Source: Acrocarpospora catenulata
GTDB taxonomy: Bacteria; Actinomycetota; Actinomycetes; Streptosporangiales; Streptosporangiaceae
Assembly (NCBI RefSeq): GCF_018476525.1
Contig: NZ_JAHCST010000082.1
Span: 1 to 34,624 of the forward strand
Reading direction: 5' to 3'
DNA: 34,624 bases
This document shows positions 16,816 to 34,509 of this stretch, in pieces. The translations under genes were made by a program, and so were the position numbers. Position 1 is the stretch's first letter; the number at the start of each line of letters is the position of its first letter. Below the pieces are notes generated by a model. The model saw only the letters and a list, made by a program, of their open reading frames with translations, did not search any database and had not been told where the DNA came from.

Positions 16816-16860
16816 GTGCCCCCTGCAGGATTCGAACCTGCGCACCCGGCTCCGGAGGCC
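16816..16860. repeat. attL of the AICE (tRNA-Arg 3' end copy)
   Basis: A 45-base sequence identical to 34,437-34,481. It corresponds to the tRNA-Arg(CCG) gene from the anticodon stem-loop to the 3' end. Identity stops abruptly at both edges, as expected for site-specific integration. This copy has no 5' half and is not a tRNA gene. Confidence 0.93.
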
Positions 16861-24383: not shown

Positions 24384-24691
24384 CGCACTTCCTGCTCACC
24401 GCCGTCCTCGTGGCGGCGCTGCTGGCGCTGCTCAGCGCCCGCCCCGACACTCCCGCCGCGACCACGCCGCCCCGCGCCTGGAAGGACCTGCGCGCTGCGG
24501 GCGGCAGACGGATCGCCTGGACGATGCTGCGGGCTGTGGCCGGAGTGCTGGCCATCACCGTGGTCGCCGCGCTGCGCACCGGCCTGTACGGCACGGCCCT
24601 GACCGTCGCCGGGATCGCCTGCATGGTCGCCTCCCTGGCGGCGCTGGACCGGCGGGCCGTGCGGCTGCACCGATTGGAGGTGCGGGCATGA
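24380..24691 (+). CDS. Small membrane protein of the transfer operon
   Basis: 103 residues from ATGA. An N-terminal helix FLLTAVLVAALLALLSA and two further hydrophobic stretches (AVAGVLAITVVAALRTGL, ALTVAGIACMVASLAAL) suggest three membrane passes. It sits directly before tra, where other AICEs also carry small hydrophobic Spd proteins. Confidence 0.65.
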   Translation: MTHFLLTAVLVAALLALLSARPDTPAATTPPRAWKDLRAAGGRRIAWTMLRAVAGVLAITVVAALRTGLYGTALTVAGIACMVASLAALDRRAVRLHRLEVRA

Positions 24692-26883
24692 GCACCGCCA
24701 GCGAGCACCAGACCCTGGAGGGCGTCGTGATTCCCCTGCGCGCCGGCCAGGACGATGCCCCGCAGCAGGAGGAGAACCCGGCGGGCTGGCTGGCCCGCCA
24801 GCAGGCCCGGGACCTGCCCGAGCTGGGTCCGTGGCTGCCGACCCGGGCGCACGCGCGGCAGACCGCCGCCTGGGCGGCACAGTGGGGATGGTGGCACGCG
24901 CGTTTCCACGCCCGCCGTTCCCCCCGCTACCTGGCCCGGCTGCTGGGACGCTGCGCACGCGCCGGCGGGCGCGGCGTCCGCTGGTGGGCCGTGTGGGTCT
25001 ACGCCCCCGAGCAGGCCGCGCAGGTGAAGGCGGTGCGCCACCAGATGCGGGTGATCACCCGCGAGACCCGGCAGACCAAGAACGGGCAGGCCGCGCGTGA
25101 GGCCGCCCTGACGTTGCGCGGCATGGAGCTTCAGCTCGACGCGGCCCGTAAGCGGCTGCACGGCTGGCGGGCGGCCAAGCTCGCCTCCACCGCCCTGCTC
25201 GCCGGTGGGGCCCTGGCCGGGCTGGACGGCGCCGCCGTGGCGGTCGGCGGGTGGGTCTACCCGGCCGCCGGACTGCTGGCGGTGACGATCGGCGCGCTGA
25301 CCGGCCGCCGCGAGCAAGAGGCGCCCCTGGTGGATGCCGGTGCTCCGGCTCCGGTGCGGGTCGATCTGCGACCGGATCAGCTCAACGCGGCTTTCCGGGC
25401 GGCCGGGCTGCTCAAGGGTGAGGACGCCTCGCTGGCGCTGTCCGGGCTCGGGATCTCCCGTCTGGGCAAGGGCTGGTGCGCGGTGGTGGACCTGCCCCGC
25501 GGTGGCGGTAAGACCGCCGCCGACGCCATCGCCAAGCGCAACACCCTGGCCGCTGAGCTGGGGGTGGATGAGATTCAGCTCATCATGCAGCGGGTGCGCG
25601 CCGCCGCCGGCGGGCACGCCGGAAGGCTGTCGATCTGGGTCGCCGACGATGATCCCTACCTGGGCAAGCCGACACCGTCGCAGCTGATCGAGGCCGAGGC
25701 GTTCGATTTCTGGAAGCCGGTCCCGTTCGGGCGCGATGCTCAGGGCAACCGGATCGAGGTCGGGTTGCTGTGGCAGTCGGCGTTCTTCGGCGGCCTGCCC
25801 CGCCGGGGCAAGACCTTCTCCATGCGGCTGCTGATCGCCGCCGCCGCACTGGACGGATGGGCCCGCCTCTACCTGGCCGATGGCAAGGGCGGCGCGGACT
25901 TCCGCGCGGTCGCGCAGATCGCGCACCGCTACGTGCAGGGCGCCGATGAGTCCAAGGGCGACCTGGAGGCGTTTGAGGCCATGCTGGACGAACTGATCTC
26001 CGAGATGACCCGCCGGTTCGCGCTGTTCGCCACCCTGCCGACCTCCATGTGCCCGGAGGGCAAGCTCACTCCGGAGATCATGCGCGCGTACGGCCTGCCG
26101 CTGATCCTCATCGCGATCGACGAACTGCAGGAGTACCTGGAGGCGCTGGAGAGCGACAAGGACCGGGCGCGGGTCATCGGCAAGATGGCCCGCATCGCCC
26201 GCCGCGGCCCGGCCGCCGGGTTCATCCCGGTCTACGCCAGCCAGCGGCCGGACGCCAAGAGCGTGCCGACCAAACTCCGGGAAATCGTCTCCTACCGGTA
26301 CTGCACCCAGGTCACCGACAAGACCAGCTCCGACATGGTCCTGGGCGACGGCAAGGCCAACCAGGGCGCCGACGCCTCCGCCCTGTCGGAGGAACACGTC
26401 GGCGTCGGGGTGCTGGTCACCGGCCCCGCCTCGCACGTCACGGTCAAAGCCGACCTGATGGACAACGTGGCCTTCGAGCGCGTGTGCCAGCGTGGCCGCG
26501 TCCTGCGGGAGAAGGCCGGGACGCTGTCCGGCCACGCGACCGGCGACCTCCAGACCGCCGGTGCCGCCGGGTTCGTCATCCCGCCCATCGTGGCCGATGT
26601 CCTGGAGGTCATGGGCCAGCGCACCCGCATCTGGACCGAGGACCTGCTGTCCGGGCTGGCCAACCTGGATGAGGACACCTACGGCGACTACGACGCCGGC
26701 CAGCTGGCCGCCGAGCTGGAAGCCGCCGGGGTCAAGCGCTCCAGCAAGCAAGTCCGCATCGGCGACGCCAACCGCGCCGGCTACTACCGGCGCGACGTCG
26801 AAGGCGTGATCCCGGCCGACCTGCTCACCCGGACCGTAGAGGGGTCCCCCTCTACCCCGGCCGCCGACCCGGCCACCGCCTGA
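24688..26883 (+). CDS. FtsK/SpoIIIE-type conjugative DNA translocase (Tra)
   Basis: 731 residues from ATGA. Residues 1-160 are helical and basic; two hydrophobic segments (LASTALLAGGALAGLDGAAV, VYPAAGLLAVTIGALTG) anchor it in the membrane. The motor domain has Walker A GLPRRGKTFS (about 369-378, Lys375) and Walker B LILIAIDELQEY (about 473-484). The C-terminal 90 residues include a winged-helix-like stretch (QLAAELEAAGVKRSSKQVRI), the usual site for binding short DNA repeats in TraB-type proteins. One such hexameric motor moves double-stranded DNA to the recipient without a relaxase, so conjugation should work as in pSAM2. A short hairpin GTAGAGGGG/CCCCTCTAC lies in the last codons. Confidence 0.9.
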   Translation: MSTASEHQTLEGVVIPLRAGQDDAPQQEENPAGWLARQQARDLPELGPWLPTRAHARQTAAWAAQWGWWHARFHARRSPRYLARLLGRCARAGGRGVRWWAVWVYAPEQAAQVKAVRHQMRVITRETRQTKNGQAAREAALTLRGMELQLDAARKRLHGWRAAKLASTALLAGGALAGLDGAAVAVGGWVYPAAGLLAVTIGALTGRREQEAPLVDAGAPAPVRVDLRPDQLNAAFRAAGLLKGEDASLALSGLGISRLGKGWCAVVDLPRGGGKTAADAIAKRNTLAAELGVDEIQLIMQRVRAAAGGHAGRLSIWVADDDPYLGKPTPSQLIEAEAFDFWKPVPFGRDAQGNRIEVGLLWQSAFFGGLPRRGKTFSMRLLIAAAALDGWARLYLADGKGGADFRAVAQIAHRYVQGADESKGDLEAFEAMLDELISEMTRRFALFATLPTSMCPEGKLTPEIMRAYGLPLILIAIDELQEYLEALESDKDRARVIGKMARIARRGPAAGFIPVYASQRPDAKSVPTKLREIVSYRYCTQVTDKTSSDMVLGDGKANQGADASALSEEHVGVGVLVTGPASHVTVKADLMDNVAFERVCQRGRVLREKAGTLSGHATGDLQTAGAAGFVIPPIVADVLEVMGQRTRIWTEDLLSGLANLDEDTYGDYDAGQLAAELEAAGVKRSSKQVRIGDANRAGYYRRDVEGVIPADLLTRTVEGSPSTPAADPATA

Positions 26884-26961: not shown

Positions 26962-27068
26962 CTGACCTGCGGCGTAGCGGCCGTAGAGGCCACCGCCCGC
27001 CCGGTGCTGCCCGCTTGGAATCACCACTCATCAGCCATCCACTGACCACCCTGAGAGGGGATCCGACC

Positions 27069-27746
27069 ATGACCGACATCACCTACACCCACCCTGACGT
27101 CCTCACCGCGGGCATGCTCCAGGGGTGGGCCGACCCGGCGCTGGACCCCGCCGAAATCGACTGGGCGGCCCGGCAGGCCCGCGCCGCCATCCCCTTCCGC
27201 GTGATCGACGGACGCCCGCTCAACCCGTTCGCTCCGACCGGCATCCGCTACGGCCGCAACCAGCTCGGACACTGGGGTGAGGCCCTATGCGCCGACGCCA
27301 TCGTCACCGCCGAGATCGGAGACACCGAGGGTGACGACCGGTGGCTGGTCATGGTCGAACGCAGCGACGGGCACGGGTGGGCGCTGCCCGGGGGTCATGT
27401 GGACCCCGGGGAGGACCCTGCGCACGCCGCCGTCCGGGAACTGGCCGAAGAGACCGGCCTGACCCTGCACGGTGCGCACTGGCAGACCCTGCCGGCCCGG
27501 TACGTGCCCGACCCCCGGGCCAGTGACGAAGCGTGGATGGTCACCATGCCGTCGCTGACCCGCCTGCGCGTCAGCCACTGGAACGAGCTGCCGGTCCCGG
27601 TTGGCGCCGACGATGCCTGGCGTGCCGCCTGGATCATTTGTGACGACTACGCCGCCCTAGTCCGCGACCTGGCCGACATCTACGGCGGACAGGTGTTCCC
27701 CGCCCACCGCGACCTTCTCGCCGAGCTGCTGGGAACCCGCCGGTGA
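27069..27746 (+). CDS. Nudix hydrolase
   Basis: 225 residues from ATG 27,069 with GAGAGGGG upstream. The Nudix box is [18 protein letters not shown] followed by AEETGL, fitting G-x5-E-x7-R-E-U-x-E-E-x-G-U in full. The N-terminal 60 residues lack a known domain and contain [20 protein letters not shown]. Nudix enzymes split nucleoside diphosphates linked to another group. Many AICEs carry one next to their regulatory genes; its role there is not settled. Confidence 0.9.
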
Positions 27747-29753: not shown

Positions 29754-29904
29754 GGCTTGACGGTAACCCGCCATCGTCGCCGCTGTCCCGCGCCGGATCA
29801 CAACCCCCCGCCCTTCACCCGTGCGCCTGCCCGCCGACCCGGTCAGGGCGGGTCACAGAAGAACCAGGCCAGCACCGTGCCGCCGCCGCTCAAGGAACCA
29901 GCCG

Positions 29905-30696
29905 ATGCCATCGCCTTGCGACCTCATCCACTCCGCACTCACCCACATCGCCCAGGGCATCCCGGTCCTGCCCTGCACACCCGGAGGCAAGCGACCCCTG
30001 GGCCAGCTTGTCCCGAACGGCTTCCACGGCGCGAGCGACGATTCTGAGTTGGTCTCCCGCTGGTGGCAGCACTGCCCAAACGCCAATGTCGCCATCCCCA
30101 CCGGCCAGGGCAGCTTCGATGTCCTGGATGTGGACGTCAAACCTGCCGGTAGCGGGTACGCGGCCCTGAACCAGCTCAAGGCCGCGGGCATCTTGCCGCC
30201 GCCGCTGGCGATCATCGCCACCCCGTCGGGCGGGCTGCACTGCTACTACCCCGGCACCGCCCAAACCTGCGGCTCGCTGTCCAGCCACTTCCTGGACTTC
30301 AAAGCCACCGGCGGCTACGTCCTCATCCCACCGAGCGTGGTCAACGGCACGGCCTACCGGCTCATCGCACGGCCCGAGGGCGCGGGAGACCAACTCAACT
30401 GGAGCACGGTCCGCCAGTTCCTCACCCCACCCCGACCCCGCACGGCAACCCCCACGCCGCGCGCCCGTCCAGCAACCGGTACGGGCATTCCCGGCCTGGC
30501 CGCCTGGCTGGCCACCCAGACCAAGGGCAATCGCAACCGGGGCCTGTTCTGGGCCTGCTGCCGCGCCGTCGAAAACGGCGCCACCGAAACCGACCTCGAC
30601 ACCCTGGTGGCCGCCATCGTCGCGCAAGGACTCGACCAGCGCGAGGCACGCCGCACCGCAGCCGACGCCCTGCGCATCGCCAGAAGGACCGCATGA
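29905..30696 (+). CDS. Bifunctional DNA primase/polymerase (Prim-Pol)
   Basis: 263 residues from ATG 29,905 with AAGGA 10 bases upstream. ALTHIAQGIPVLPCTPGGKR, then WWQHCPNANVAIPTGQGSFD, catalytic VLDVDVK (Asp75, Asp77), TPSGGLHCYYPG (His112) and LDFKATGGYVLIPPS make a complete Prim-Pol catalytic domain. The C-terminal 70 residues, GTGIPGLAAWLATQTKGNRN onward, are the small helical domain often fused to it. In AICEs of this class it replaces the RepSA-type initiator and works with the helicase that follows. Confidence 0.9.
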   Translation: MPSPCDLIHSALTHIAQGIPVLPCTPGGKRPLGQLVPNGFHGASDDSELVSRWWQHCPNANVAIPTGQGSFDVLDVDVKPAGSGYAALNQLKAAGILPPPLAIIATPSGGLHCYYPGTAQTCGSLSSHFLDFKATGGYVLIPPSVVNGTAYRLIARPEGAGDQLNWSTVRQFLTPPRPRTATPTPRARPATGTGIPGLAAWLATQTKGNRNRGLFWACCRAVENGATETDLDTLVAAIVAQGLDQREARRTAADALRIARRTA

Positions 30697-30749: not shown

Positions 30750-32311
30750 ACGACTCCATCCCCGTGCACGTGGGGTCCGGACCCGAGACCATCAGGGTTC
30801 TCAAAGCCGCCCTGGCCGACAACCTGCTACCCGACACCTACGTGTCCGGCGGCGCGCTGGTCCACATGGAAACCGTCTCCGGCGAGCAGGCCAGCCCGGC
30901 CGCCGACGAGGACTCACCCCTTCCGGTCACCGCCAGCACGATCACCCCCGCCACCCTCGCCGGGCTGCTGGCAGAACACGCCTACGTCTACCGGCTCCGC
31001 TCCCGCAAGGACAGCAAAGGCGAGCCGGAGTTCTACGAGGAAGAGGTCACCCCGCCCCGGGAAATCCTCTCCTCCGTGCTGGCCGGCAAGACCTGGCCCA
31101 AGGTTCCGCCGCTGCGCGGCGTGATCGGCGCGCCGGTCCTGCGCCGGGACGGCACCCTGCTGCAACGCCCCGGCTACGACCCGGCCACCGGCCTGTACCT
31201 GGCCTCAAAAGTCGCGCTACCGCCGGTCCCGGACCGGCCTACCCCTGAGCAGGTGCAGGCCGCGCGGGATTTCCTGCTCAACCGGTTCCTGTGTGACTTC
31301 CCGTGGGCCAGCCCGGCCGACCGGGCCAACTACCTGGCGCTGCTGGCCACCCCGATCCTGCGGCACTTCACCCGCTCGCTGACCCCGTTCGCCCTGATCG
31401 ACGCCACCATGCCCGCCTCCGGCAAGAGCATTTTGACCGGCGGCCCCGGCATGCTCTACGGCCAGCGGGTCATGCCCTGGGCCTACGCCGATGAGGAGCT
31501 CCGCAAGAGCATCACCGCGGTACTGGCCGAACAGGTCGGCGTGGTGGTGTGGGACAACCTCGCCGAAGGCACCGTCATCGACTCGCCCACCCTCGCCTTG
31601 CTCGTCACGGCCGGCGTGTGGTCCGACCGCCAGCTGGGTGCCTCCCGCAACATCGCCACCGTCAACGACCGGCTGTGGATGGCCACCGGCAACAACCTCC
31701 AAGTCGGCGGAGACATGGCCTCCCGGACGGTCCGGGTCCACCTGGACCCCAACATGCCCCGCCCCGAACAGCGCGACCAATCCCGGTTCGGGATCCCGCA
31801 CCTGGACCAGTGGATCACCGTCCCGGCCAACCAGCTCACCGTGCTGTGGCACCTGCTGGTCCTGGTCCTGGACTGGACCAGCAAGGGCGCACCCCGAGCC
31901 GCCACCCTGTCCATGCGCCAGTTCACCCCGTGGGCGCACCACCTGGGCGGCTTCCTGGCTCACCACGGCATCGACGGTTTCCTGGCCAACGCCGCCGACG
32001 TCCGGGACATCGACGAGGACGAAACCCGCTGGCGCGGCTTCCTGGCCTGCTGGCACACCCTGCACGGCACCCAACCCAGGACCGCCGCCGAGCTACGCCG
32101 CTCCGCAGAACCGACCTCATCGGGCAGCGACGAACACGACCCGTGGGATGGCCAGTTCATCACCACTCACACCGGCCGCTTGCCCAATCCCATCTCCCTT
32201 GGCCGCCTCCTCACCGGCCAGACGGGACGGTGGCGCGGCGACTACGTCATCCGCTCAGCCAAGGACGACAGGGGGACCCGAAACGTCTTTTGGGTCGAGT
32301 GCCATGGCTAA
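30746..32311 (+). CDS. SF3-like P-loop replicative helicase
   Basis: 521 residues from a GTG within a GTGA overlap. The centre has a Walker A MPASGKSIL (Lys227) and a Walker B-like VVVWDNL (Asp270), followed by a sensor-like NDRLWMATGNNLQVGGDMAS and the arginine-bearing RTVRVHLD. The order fits D5/P4-type helicases paired with Prim-Pol primases in plasmids and AICEs. The C-terminal third, about 400-521, may bind DNA. It lies directly before the iteron region, which is the natural place for an initiator helicase to load. Confidence 0.83.
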   Translation: MNDSIPVHVGSGPETIRVLKAALADNLLPDTYVSGGALVHMETVSGEQASPAADEDSPLPVTASTITPATLAGLLAEHAYVYRLRSRKDSKGEPEFYEEEVTPPREILSSVLAGKTWPKVPPLRGVIGAPVLRRDGTLLQRPGYDPATGLYLASKVALPPVPDRPTPEQVQAARDFLLNRFLCDFPWASPADRANYLALLATPILRHFTRSLTPFALIDATMPASGKSILTGGPGMLYGQRVMPWAYADEELRKSITAVLAEQVGVVVWDNLAEGTVIDSPTLALLVTAGVWSDRQLGASRNIATVNDRLWMATGNNLQVGGDMASRTVRVHLDPNMPRPEQRDQSRFGIPHLDQWITVPANQLTVLWHLLVLVLDWTSKGAPRAATLSMRQFTPWAHHLGGFLAHHGIDGFLANAADVRDIDEDETRWRGFLACWHTLHGTQPRTAAELRRSAEPTSSGSDEHDPWDGQFITTHTGRLPNPISLGRLLTGQTGRWRGDYVIRSAKDDRGTRNVFWVECHG

Positions 32312-32325
32312 CCGGACCACAAGAA

Positions 32326-32351
32326 GGGCTGAAACATCTCTACATCCCTGC
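32326..32351 (+). repeat. Left arm of the origin inverted repeat
   Basis: 26 bases matching the reverse complement of 32,534-32,559 at 24 positions, the outer 16 without mismatch. Confidence 0.8.
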
Positions 32352-32533
32352 AACCCTGCACGATCATGTTTGACCAGCACAAACATCCGCAGAGGTAGAC
32401 CAGGTCAAGGAATACGCATCTCTGCATCCCTGCGCCGAGTGCAGAGATAACCCGGTTTTGCAGAGATGAACCAGGCCGAAGCCTCTACATCTCTGCACGC
32501 ATCTCCCCAGCTCACAGCCACTTTTGCAGAGAT

Positions 32534-32559
32534 GCAGAGATGCAGAGATGTTTCAGCCC
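32534..32559 (-). repeat. Right arm of the origin inverted repeat
   Basis: Partner of 32,326-32,351; it merges with the tandem iterons at 32,525-32,550. Confidence 0.8.
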
Positions 32560-32618: not shown

Positions 32619-32849
32619 ATGACCGTCATCGACGTCCGGAAGGCCGCCAACCATCGCGGCTATTGGATGACCGTTCCCGAGATTCTCGCCGATCTCCAGA
32701 TTCCTCGCCGGACCTGGCAGCGTTGGCGCGCTCTCGGCAAGACGCCGGAATGCACGCGCTTGCCCAATGGAGACCTGCGCGTCAAGCGCCACGACTATGA
32801 TGCGTGGCTTGACTCCCTCGCCGAGGACGAGCGGAATCATCGCCGATGA
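32619..32849 (+). CDS. xis: Excisionase (Xis)
   Basis: 76 residues from ATG 32,619 after GGAAGGAG. MTVPEILADLQIPRRTWQRW followed by GKTPECTRLPNGDLRVKRHD is a complete MerR-type/helix-turn-helix-17 domain, as in AICE excisionases. Xis would tip the integrase toward excision. A longer frame starting at 32,466 would overlap the iterons and has no ribosome site, so I reject it. The stop overlaps the int start (ATGA), the usual xis-int arrangement. Confidence 0.88.
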   Translation: MTVIDVRKAANHRGYWMTVPEILADLQIPRRTWQRWRALGKTPECTRLPNGDLRVKRHDYDAWLDSLAEDERNHRR

Positions 32850-34216
32850 AGACGTACAACGTCCGATTCTGGAAGATCTCGAAGAAGAAGACCGGTGCCG
32901 CGCCATACCTCGTTCGCTGGGTCGTGGACGGCACCGTATTTCCCCGCCACTTCACCACGGCGGCACTGGCCGACAGCTTCCGTTCCGAACTCGTTCAGGC
33001 GGCCCGTCGCGGCGAGGCTTTCGACACGGACACGGGGCTTCCAGAGTCCATGACGCGCGCCAAGACCGGCATGACCTGGTATCAGCATGCGTGCGAATAC
33101 GTCAATGACCGATGGGACAAGGTCTCCGGCAAACAGCGGATCTCGATCGCGGAAACCCTTACCGCGGTAACTCCCGTACTCGTGCGGGAGCGGCGCGGCG
33201 CTCCGGATCTGGCCATTCTGCGTACTGCGTTGTACCGATGGGCCTTCAATAAGCCGCGTCGCGGCACCGACATGCCCCCTGAAGTCGCAGCTGCGCTCAA
33301 GTGGCTTGACAGGGTGTCGATCCCGGTGGCTGAGCTTGCCGAGTATGATCGCATCGCTGCCGCTCTGGAGGCATGTGCCAGAAAGCTGGACGGCAAGCCC
33401 GCGGCCGCCGGCTATTTCAGCCGCCGCCGCCGCGTGCTCTACAACATCCTCAACTACGCCGTAGTCAGGAAGCGTCTCCAGTCCAACCCGATAAACGGCC
33501 TGGACTGGAAGGCGCCCGAGGATGACGTGTGTGAGGAGGTAGACCCCGCCGCCGTTGCCTCCCCCGAGCAAGTACGCGAACTGTTGACCGCCGTCAGCTA
33601 CGCGGGATGGCGGCGCGGTCCCCGGCTCGTGGCTTTCTTCGCCTGCATGTATTTCGCGATGATGCGACCCGGTGAAGTTATCGCGCTCCGAAGGCAAGAC
33701 TGCGATCTGCCCGAGAAGGGTTGGGGGCGGCTCATGCTCGGAGACTCCCGCCCCACCGTGGGCACCGAATGGACTGACGACGGCAAGGTTCACGAGGCTC
33801 GCGGGCTCAAGGGCAGGCCTCGTAAGGCCAAGCGGCCGGTGCCCATTCCGCCCGAGTTGGTCACGATTCTGCGGAAGCACATCGCCCGGTACGGCGTGGC
33901 CGACGACGGACGGCTGTTCCGTACCGAGCGGAACGGCATGCTTCAGGCGTCGGGCTACACCCGAACATGGCGAACGGCTCGCTCACTGGCGCTGTCCCCC
34001 GCCCAGGTCGCTTCCGAGCTGGCGCGGCGACCGTACGACCTGCGGCACGCAGGGGTTTCCATGCGGCTCAACGCGGGGATTCCCGCAACCCAGGTAGCAG
34101 AGTGGGCAGGTCACAGCGTGGAAGTCCTTCTTAAGATCTACGCCAAGTGCATCGACGGACGCGACCATGTGTGGCGCGACCTCGTGGATCGCGCTCTTGA
34201 AGGCGAAGCTGGGTAG
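32846..34216 (+). CDS. int: Tyrosine site-specific integrase (Int)
   Basis: 456 residues from ATGA. The N-terminal half is the arm-binding/core-binding region. Catalytic residues: Arg274 (MMRPGEVIALR), Tyr397-Asp-Leu-Arg400-His401 (YDLRH, with Tyr where many relatives have the first His), His423 (EWAGHS) and nucleophile Tyr432 (LLKIYAKC). The length fits AICE integrases. It should cut within the 45-base att sites at 16,816 and 34,437. The gene ends 220 bases from attR and is followed by a strong terminator. Confidence 0.93.
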   Translation: MKTYNVRFWKISKKKTGAAPYLVRWVVDGTVFPRHFTTAALADSFRSELVQAARRGEAFDTDTGLPESMTRAKTGMTWYQHACEYVNDRWDKVSGKQRISIAETLTAVTPVLVRERRGAPDLAILRTALYRWAFNKPRRGTDMPPEVAAALKWLDRVSIPVAELAEYDRIAAALEACARKLDGKPAAAGYFSRRRRVLYNILNYAVVRKRLQSNPINGLDWKAPEDDVCEEVDPAAVASPEQVRELLTAVSYAGWRRGPRLVAFFACMYFAMMRPGEVIALRRQDCDLPEKGWGRLMLGDSRPTVGTEWTDDGKVHEARGLKGRPRKAKRPVPIPPELVTILRKHIARYGVADDGRLFRTERNGMLQASGYTRTWRTARSLALSPAQVASELARRPYDLRHAGVSMRLNAGIPATQVAEWAGHSVEVLLKIYAKCIDGRDHVWRDLVDRALEGEAG

Positions 34217-34436: not shown

Positions 34437-34481
34437 GTGCCCCCTGCAGGATTCGAACCTGCGCACCCGGCTCCGGAGGCC
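34437..34481. repeat. attR of the AICE
   Basis: 45 bases identical to attL at 16,816-16,860, lying within the tRNA-Arg gene from the anticodon stem-loop to the 3' end. Integration rebuilds a complete tRNA gene at this end. Confidence 0.93.
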
Positions 34482-34509
34482 GGTGCTCTATCCCCTGAGC
34501 TAAGGGGGC
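34438..34509 (-). tRNA. tRNA-Arg(CCG)
   Basis: 72 bases that fold completely. Acceptor GCCCCCT pairs with AGGGGGC, D arm GCTC/GAGC, anticodon arm CCGGC/GCCGG with loop CTCCGGA (anticodon CCG), T arm GCAGG/CCTGC with loop TTCGAAT, discriminator A. CCA is not encoded. It reads CGG codons, heavily used in such genomes, so the intact gene must be kept after integration. Its 3' part is now supplied by the element. Confidence 0.96.

Follow-up and report, generated by a model that had tools for sequence, protein, structure and literature searches.

The question raised by this locus is what a short non-coding segment full of repeats does for the mobile element that carries it. The window (the whole stretch of 34,624 nucleotides analysed, from Acrocarpospora catenulata) had been predicted from its letters to hold, at 32326-32559, an iteron cluster enclosed by inverted repeats, read as a candidate AICE origin with a switch region for xis-int expression as the alternative. 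The analysis indicated that the segment very probably serves a mobile element of a soil actinomycete as its replication origin, with the element's RepA as the protein that reads it.

Analysis of the 234-bp segment bore out the architecture described in the original prediction. The inverted-repeat ends pair at 24 of 26 bases, the first 16 unbroken, and when extended they reach 38 nt with 87% pairing. At least eight iteron units had been claimed, and a search with TGCAGAGATG at ≤1 mismatch returned 9 sites in the segment, 6 of them exact, out of 10 in the whole 34.6-kb window; shuffles of the window gave a mean of 1.6 and a maximum of 4 (0/100 reached 10). The three units at 8-base steps were found at 32525-32547, units were located within both outer arms as had been stated, and the non-coding position between helicase and xis was confirmed by the stop of the helicase-like ORF at 32311 and the start of xis at 32619. 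The commonest 9-mer of the segment, counted on both strands, has 7 copies (0/1000 dinucleotide shuffles match), and its longest perfect inverted repeat, among those whose arms lie 100 or more apart, measures 16 (0/300 shuffles match); a chance origin of the repeats and inverted arms was ruled out by these shuffles. The GC content is 53.8% against 69.9% for the window, with 3 of 1720 sliding 234-bp windows equal or lower, and the single-stranded fold of the segment is -57 kcal/mol (z = -8.9; 0/200 shuffles as good). The unit number was refined, as the arrays of relatives have about 12 units and several left-hand units of the window have one or two mismatches. The features of the segment are as follows.

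32326-32559, no strand: candidate replication origin, an iteron array in roughly mirror order with inverted arms; its pWTY27 counterpart is needed for replication (PMC3583192)
32326-32351, no strand: left inverted arm, 26 bp, 24/26 pairing with 32534-32559; covaries between relatives, with thin phylogenetic support
32338-32360, minus strand: three outer left units at 32338, 32346 and 32354, one mismatch each
32371-32378, plus strand: left inner box TGACCAGC, weakly conserved on the left side
32388-32394, plus strand: single opposite unit of the left half, one mismatch
32420-32434, minus strand: inner left unit pair, the second unit with two mismatches
32440-32465, plus strand: inner right unit pair (32440-32446 and 32459-32465)
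32491-32497, minus strand: single opposite unit of the right half, with an extra one-mismatch match at 32483-32489
32505-32514, minus strand: right inner box, minus-strand TGAGCTGGGG; right-side TGACCTGC at ≤2 mismatches in 79/82 origins
32525-32547, plus strand: three exact outer right units at 8-bp steps
32534-32559, no strand: right inverted arm, 26 bp, pairing with the left arm

The surrounding DNA contained an integrated element of 17,666 bp (17.7 kb), bounded by 45-bp direct repeats and with a tRNA-Arg at one end. Its main features are listed below.

16816-16860, no strand: att repeat at the far end of the AICE, 45-bp perfect repeat
24688-26883, plus strand: FtsK/TraB-like translocase (Tra), PF01580, with a TraB match far under its cut-off
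29821-30696, plus strand: Prim-Pol, candidate primase of the replicon, PF09250
30746-32311, plus strand: RepA, helicase-like initiator of 521 aa with a modelled C-terminal winged helix (about 447-519), 36% identity to pWTY27 RepA and a PHROG primase/polymerase match
32619-32849, plus strand: xis-like HTH protein, 76 aa, HTH_17 (E 3e-05, below the curated cut-off)
32846-34216, plus strand: tyrosine integrase, PF00589 (E 8.1e-06, just below the curated cut-off)
34437-34481, no strand: att repeat, 45-bp perfect repeat, inside the tRNA-Arg gene (34437-34509, minus strand)

The element was classed as an AICE from its gene content and att repeats, with putative excision, replication and transfer. 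It is integrated in a tRNA gene between direct repeats (the 45-bp repeat in tRNA-Arg). Its genes comprise those for replication, an FtsK-type Tra, a tyrosine integrase and xis, with the integrase and HTH_17 matches scoring slightly under the Pfam cut-offs; a WhiB-like protein and a GntR-type regulator are also encoded. For replication, Prim-Pol and a RepA lacking a Pfam match were seen, the point of comparison being rolling-circle AICEs of the pSAM2 type with their RepSA-type initiator. A Nudix protein is encoded at 27015-27746, between tra and rep; in pSAM2, the Nudix protein Pif blocks redundant transfer.

RepA, encoded immediately upstream of the segment, gave no Pfam match, a further search gave just scattered weak matches, and a PDB sequence search returned no match. 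Foldseek returned nothing at E ≤ 0.001, with the SaPI5 primase-helicase and PriRep1 listed without significance. Motifs at 222, 266 and 311, which we take to be ATPase-like, were present, and the ATPase core of the structure model had low confidence; RepA would have a helicase fold and is a candidate for the AAA+/SF3 helicases. It is homologous to pWTY27 RepA (36% identity over 95%, E 2e-65). From the secondary structure of the model, a C-terminal winged helix was predicted at about residues 447-519, where a helix is followed by a strand, a turn and a second strand over residues 500-519 (pLDDT 85-87 for 501-520). Residues 509 and 511 both lie in the turn between the two strands, which was read as the wing, and their codons are given as one further feature.

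32270-32278, plus strand: codons for the wing residues 509 (Arg), 510 and 511 (Thr) of RepA; iteron base 4 is tracked by 511, and base 2 may be tracked by 509

The comparison with related elements that had been proposed for the segment was carried out through RepA. The first search yielded 61 loci, 59 of them close (72-89% identity over the best segment), and an array lay behind RepA in 58 of the 59, with the unit TGCGGAG in 49, TGCCGAG in 8 and TTCGGAG in 1 (L009), the window having TGCAGAG. Prim-Pol was upstream of RepA in all 10 relatives checked out of the 59. The wider search found matches in 34/345 genomes of the order (own included), 14/394 of the class, 58/354 of Micromonosporaceae and 6/35 of one further family. 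The final set held 177 RepA copies, plasmids included, of which 115 were unique and 84 (window included) were more than 70% identical with readable ends; the named relatives belong to Streptosporangiaceae, Thermomonosporaceae and Micromonosporaceae. Array and arms recur in 82 of these 84 close loci; L027 has no array and was counted as having no type, and in L179 no arms were detectable by the script. L063 and L064 (distant) and L178 and L168 (RepA C-terminus unreadable, hence absent from the code table) were left out, while the RepA tree includes L060, L052, L177 and L179 although their RepA bodies are long or partial.

A few loci were unusual in their own right. The origin of L012 (Herbidospora solisilvae) is partly duplicated, with 339 bp and 20 exact units. 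In L027 (Actinomadura sp. KC216), RepA is open to its end and nothing remains of the array but the start of its left arm, on a contig whose name gives a coverage of 91 against 16 for another contig of that assembly. Genome G249 carries three RepA copies on contig C1 at 1834131-1845210 (L085, L142), with equal alignment scores and exactly 4,766-bp spacing, a mobile replicon repeated in tandem; the presence of a C-type copy (L143) elsewhere in G249 implies that G-type and C-type elements, as defined below by the fourth base of the unit, can share a cell. No RepA relative was found in viral_contigs, with 6 pattern matches, and an array-pattern scan of viral_contigs gave 32 stretches, in whose available DNA no RepA relative was present. 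Further A-type or T-type arrays among the 345 genomes of the order and 354 Micromonosporaceae amounted to one pattern match (G203) and one pair (G946), neither with a RepA relative within the 3 kb fetched.

The array layout was conserved among the relatives. The commonest number of exact units in the 82 origins is 12 (35/82). The order three-one-two / two-one-three, at ≤1 mismatch, was exact in 17/82 origins and carried one extra match in another 18, some extra unit matches overlapping the inner box; with exact units only it was found in 18/82. An Actinoplanes-like group (9/82) has two-one-three / three-one-two, again six plus six with the mirror order kept. Exact mirror order with perfect units only occurred in 27/82 origins, and the mirror rule is therefore a tendency blurred by degenerate units. 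The array split 6/6 at its midpoint in 34/82 origins at one mismatch with box-overlapping matches dropped, and in 18/82 with perfect units only, part of the shortfall being a unit that sits on the midpoint. In a set of 29 distant relatives, the best heptamer, picked per sequence with no control, is present in exactly 12 exact copies in 9, while 5 lack a clear array (≤4 copies).

A second conserved element inside the outer arms is the TGA[C/G]CTG box. At ≤2 mismatches, TGACCTGC occurred on the right side in 79/82 origins versus 288/1640 shuffled sequences, and on the left side in 44/82 versus 242/1640. Of the 29 distant origins, 18 contain the box (5 of them in both orientations), where mononucleotide shuffles predict 1.5. 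Since the box is kept while the unit sequence changes, something besides the wing may read it, and the box (32505-32514 and its relatives) is a candidate priming or opening site.

The conserved arms also admit a reading in which they form a hairpin or cruciform on extruded single strands, as in the stem-loop origin of pRN1, with the iterons incidental. The strong single-stranded fold fits it, as does the covariation of arm positions 7 and 18 beyond permuted partners (0/1000 each), obtained after five out-of-register loci were dropped (77 loci, 40 unique arm pairs). Independent arm-pair support is thin, however: 1.5 of 2 supported pairs agree at position 7, 5.4 of 7 at position 18 and 2.6 of 11 at position 26, where the arms mostly do not follow each other. 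In 8/76 loci the same base stands in both arms at position 18, with the usual base in the inner units. The inner units are conserved too, and in pWTY27 the footprints fall on inner units (PMC3583192), so that the hairpin is an unlikely basis for the origin. The arms may pair, or one may be repaired from the other.

The link between the array and RepA came from the fourth base of the unit. In TGC[N]GAG, 64 relatives have G at base 4 and 18 have C, A being confined to the window, and 937 of 952 unit copies have the base 4 of their own locus. It had been anticipated that repeats varying freely between close relatives would count against an origin; the repeats do vary, but nearly all units of a locus change together, and with one RepA residue. 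Over the 84 loci, base 4 and residue 511 were combined as G with Asp in 64, C with Asn in 17, C with a deletion in 1 (L045), A with Thr in 1 (the window) and no array with Asp in 1 (L027). The scan covered every RepA column, Prim-Pol in 20/60 loci and Int in 19/60. Residue 511 alone agreed fully with base 4 among RepA columns, followed by 507 (phi 0.77), with no clear partner base, and 430 (0.36). At the DNA level, codon 511 position 1 had phi 1.0 and codon 507 position 1 had 0.75, with the rest of the top 14 at ≤0.32. The change from Asp to Asn at 511 (GAC to AAC) is a single base. The sole exception to the code is L045 (Micromonospora zingiberis), with a C-type origin and RepA residue 511 lost, which has either a non-working RepA or another solution.

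The pairing was fixed as a prediction before further genomes were added, and the new C-types had Asn in 10/10 and the new G-types Asp in 14/14; one of the 14 was a second copy inside an earlier locus, so that 23/23 strictly new loci fit, and 2 further new loci had no readable RepA end. On the RepA-body tree (residues 1-469) there were 18 type changes, and 11/11 supported independent pairs agreed (p = 0.001). On the repA 3' DNA tree without codons 507 and 511 there were 14 type changes, with 5/5 supported pairs in agreement (p = 0.06) and, over all branches, 13 pairs agreeing with residue 511. These comparisons suggest that one RepA residue (511) decides the base that the repeats must carry, and the putative recognition of the iterons by the C-terminal domain is supported by the covariation. 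For the A-Thr pair, the window is the only locus. Residue 509 probably reads base 2, a pair taken from one locus: L009 is the only one of 82 origins with base 2 changed in the consensus unit (TTCGGAG), and its RepA has the only Leu for Arg at 509 among 84. In L029, 4 arm units are TCCGGAG (base 2 changed) beside 8 normal units, yet Arg 509 is kept. Residues 509 and 511 are two apart, as are bases 2 and 4, a spacing that would fit an extended strand in the groove.

The same match would arise if the repA 3' end and the origin were simply co-inherited and residue 511 did not touch DNA, and several observations lean that way: the two lie within about 300 bp, the origin tree has few independent switches, and the repA 3' end follows the origin in the pairs L061/L046 and L086/L143, which share both. 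With the units masked, the nearest origin to a C-type origin is also C-type in 14/17, while the nearest RepA body to C-type loci is G-type in 13/17. Between L076 and L016, the last 400 bp of repA are 93-100% shared, identity falls to about 0.7 across most of the origin and is 0.97 again in the stretch just behind it before the two diverge; the L076 origin resembles that of L017 (0.78-0.90). Because masked C-type origins cluster while RepA bodies do not, and from the case of L076, L016 and L017, origins have been exchanged as blocks. The masked-origin tree (without L012 and L115) had 6 type changes, poorly supported, one forced by supported branches, and the origin types thus have fewer origins than the RepA-body tree suggests.

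The repA 3' end did not move with these blocks as a rule. The nearest repA 3' end to C-type loci, without codons 507 and 511, was C-type in 9/18, and for codons 512-520 in 5/18, compared with the 14/17 for masked origins, and linked sites other than codon 507 were weakly associated. The idea of a single cassette of repA 3' end and origin that always moves as one did not hold up, since clear movement is seen for the origin block only. Around the wing, the repA DNA mostly stays while the origin moves, with codon 511 following the origin. Codon 511 follows the origin closer than neighbouring codons do, which fits a contact, unlike plain linkage; as the repA 3' end mostly does not follow the origin, linkage was judged rather improbable.

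The regulatory switch offered at the outset, in which RepA or another protein on the array controls excision and the origin lies elsewhere, draws on the proximity of the genes, since only about 60 bp separate the end of the right arm from xis, which in turn shares 4 bp with int. The plasmid pWTY27 nevertheless keeps its array with no annotated xis-int directly behind, which makes the switch less likely as a main role; its array is also needed for replication (PMC3583192), and the residue-base match ties the array of the window to RepA. This role was accordingly considered distinctly improbable and was rejected as the main one. A clt transfer site of the kind found in Streptomyces conjugative plasmids, with the FtsK/TraB-like translocase as its reader, is very improbable and was likewise rejected on RepA tracking and the pWTY27 evidence, for although the 8-bp steps recall the 8-bp repeats reportedly read by TraB of pSVH1 (cited in PMC3583192), the units stand in both orientations and track RepA, the array is 5.4 kb from the FtsK gene, and the clt of pWTY27 adjoins tra and has different repeats (PMC3583192).

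The preferred reading is a Prim-Pol-type AICE origin with a probability of about 0.8. The AICE parts are present and the homologous pWTY27 RepA has a similar array in the same place that is needed for replication (PMC3583192), so the original proposal of an AICE origin is supported. RepA would bind the heptamers TGCAGAG through its C-terminal winged helix, with wing-tip residue 511 reading base 4 and residue 509 probably reading base 2, which would make the array and RepA a matched A/Thr pair. The units run three-one-two, then two-one-three, in roughly mirror order, and we infer that two RepA hexamers would assemble on them head to head, each on its own half of the array, melt the intervening DNA and move off in opposite directions. 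The neighbouring Prim-Pol would then lay primers, perhaps at the conserved TGA[C/G]CTG box. Only tentatively can this be extended to a full wing code (509 with base 2 and 511 with base 4: Asp-G, Asn-C, Thr-A, Arg-G and Leu-T), in which about twelve mirror sites might seat two hexamers with one subunit per site and a type change might come about when an element acquires a whole foreign origin and adapts one repA codon to it. If this were true, elements that change type may thereby avoid being incompatible with relatives present in their cell. Genomes with elements of different types do occur (L048 with L061, L016 with L017), and so do genomes with several elements of one type.

The replication genes of Prim-Pol AICEs have been described as likely "unforeseen AICE replication modules" (PMC3218068). 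The start of replication in these elements is little described, and the segment offers a precise candidate origin with its likely binding protein. It also offers a one-residue, one-base prediction that is checkable with natural variants, and a natural case of a joint shift in specificity by an initiator and about twelve sites, in which the origin is replaced as a block and a single codon of the initiator changes with it. The RepA-bound, replication-essential array was known from pWTY27 (PMC3583192); the concerted change of the units and its tracking by residue 511 are new here. In the literature searched, which was mostly the open part, no residue-base code or 6+6 order was described for these replicons.

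Among known systems, pWTY27 and pCM32 share with the window a homologous RepA and a repeat array behind it. Like the window, pWTY27 has a Prim-Pol gene, then a homologous RepA, then a mirror-order array (++ - ++ / -- + --). The pWTY27 record holds ten exact units, within 338-355, 366-372, 405-420, 487-502, 535-541 and 552-569. For pWTY27, binding of the array by RepA and the need for the array in replication were established by deletions, gel shifts and footprints, the required DNA being the 300 non-coding bp that follow repA (PMC3583192). The footprints at 405-447 and 462-509 (PMC3583192) cover the inner four units (405-420, 487-502). A 149-bp piece (record 382-530) failed to restore replication, whereas the 300-bp piece restored it (PMC3583192), and the failed piece holds the inner four units only, the six outer units being absent. 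The replicon with telomeres runs as a linear plasmid, and its authors infer bidirectional replication (PMC3583192). The window differs in that the pWTY27 unit is the unrelated GTGGGAA, the inner boxes lie on the other side of the single units, and pWTY27 is a plasmid with 10 exact units rather than a tRNA-integrated element. The available text of that report describes direct and inverted repeats and a stem-loop, and in it neither a 6+6 order nor a residue-base code is given (PMC3583192). The window thus shows a pWTY27-type array directly downstream of repA with degenerate left-hand units, and its membership in the pWTY27-type RepA/iteron replicons is supported by homology and architecture, RepA binding being predicted here. 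In pCM32 of Saccharopolyspora endophytica, RepA is 58% identical, Prim-Pol is upstream and the array lies between repA and xis-int, while the unit is AAACCCG.

More distant systems resembled the window in part. SLP1-type Prim-Pol AICEs (SCO4617/SCO4618) also have Prim-Pol and then a second replication gene (PMC3218068); the likeness is one of gene order, the accessible part of that report describing no origin for these modules (PMC3218068). The pRN1 protein ORF904 has a C-terminal winged helix beside its primase and SF3-helicase functions, and its origin lies directly downstream, but it is a single fused protein and its origin is a stem-loop without iterons (PMC4234260). In PLE RepA/ori, the DNA-binding domain of the initiator and the origin vary together and have been exchanged, although that initiator is of the RepA_N type and whole domains differ, compared with one or two residues here (PMC8263062). 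In SaPI Rep/ori and SCCmec Cch2, the C-terminal domain of an initiator helicase recognises short iterons directly downstream of its gene (PMC7581432). The window likewise has an iteron origin directly downstream of a helicase-like gene, a likeness to SaPI Rep and Cch2 in layout. From these likenesses, the segment is proposed to be a pWTY27-like origin for a self-loading helicase, SaPI-like in its action, with a wing-to-base code and two sets of six sites.
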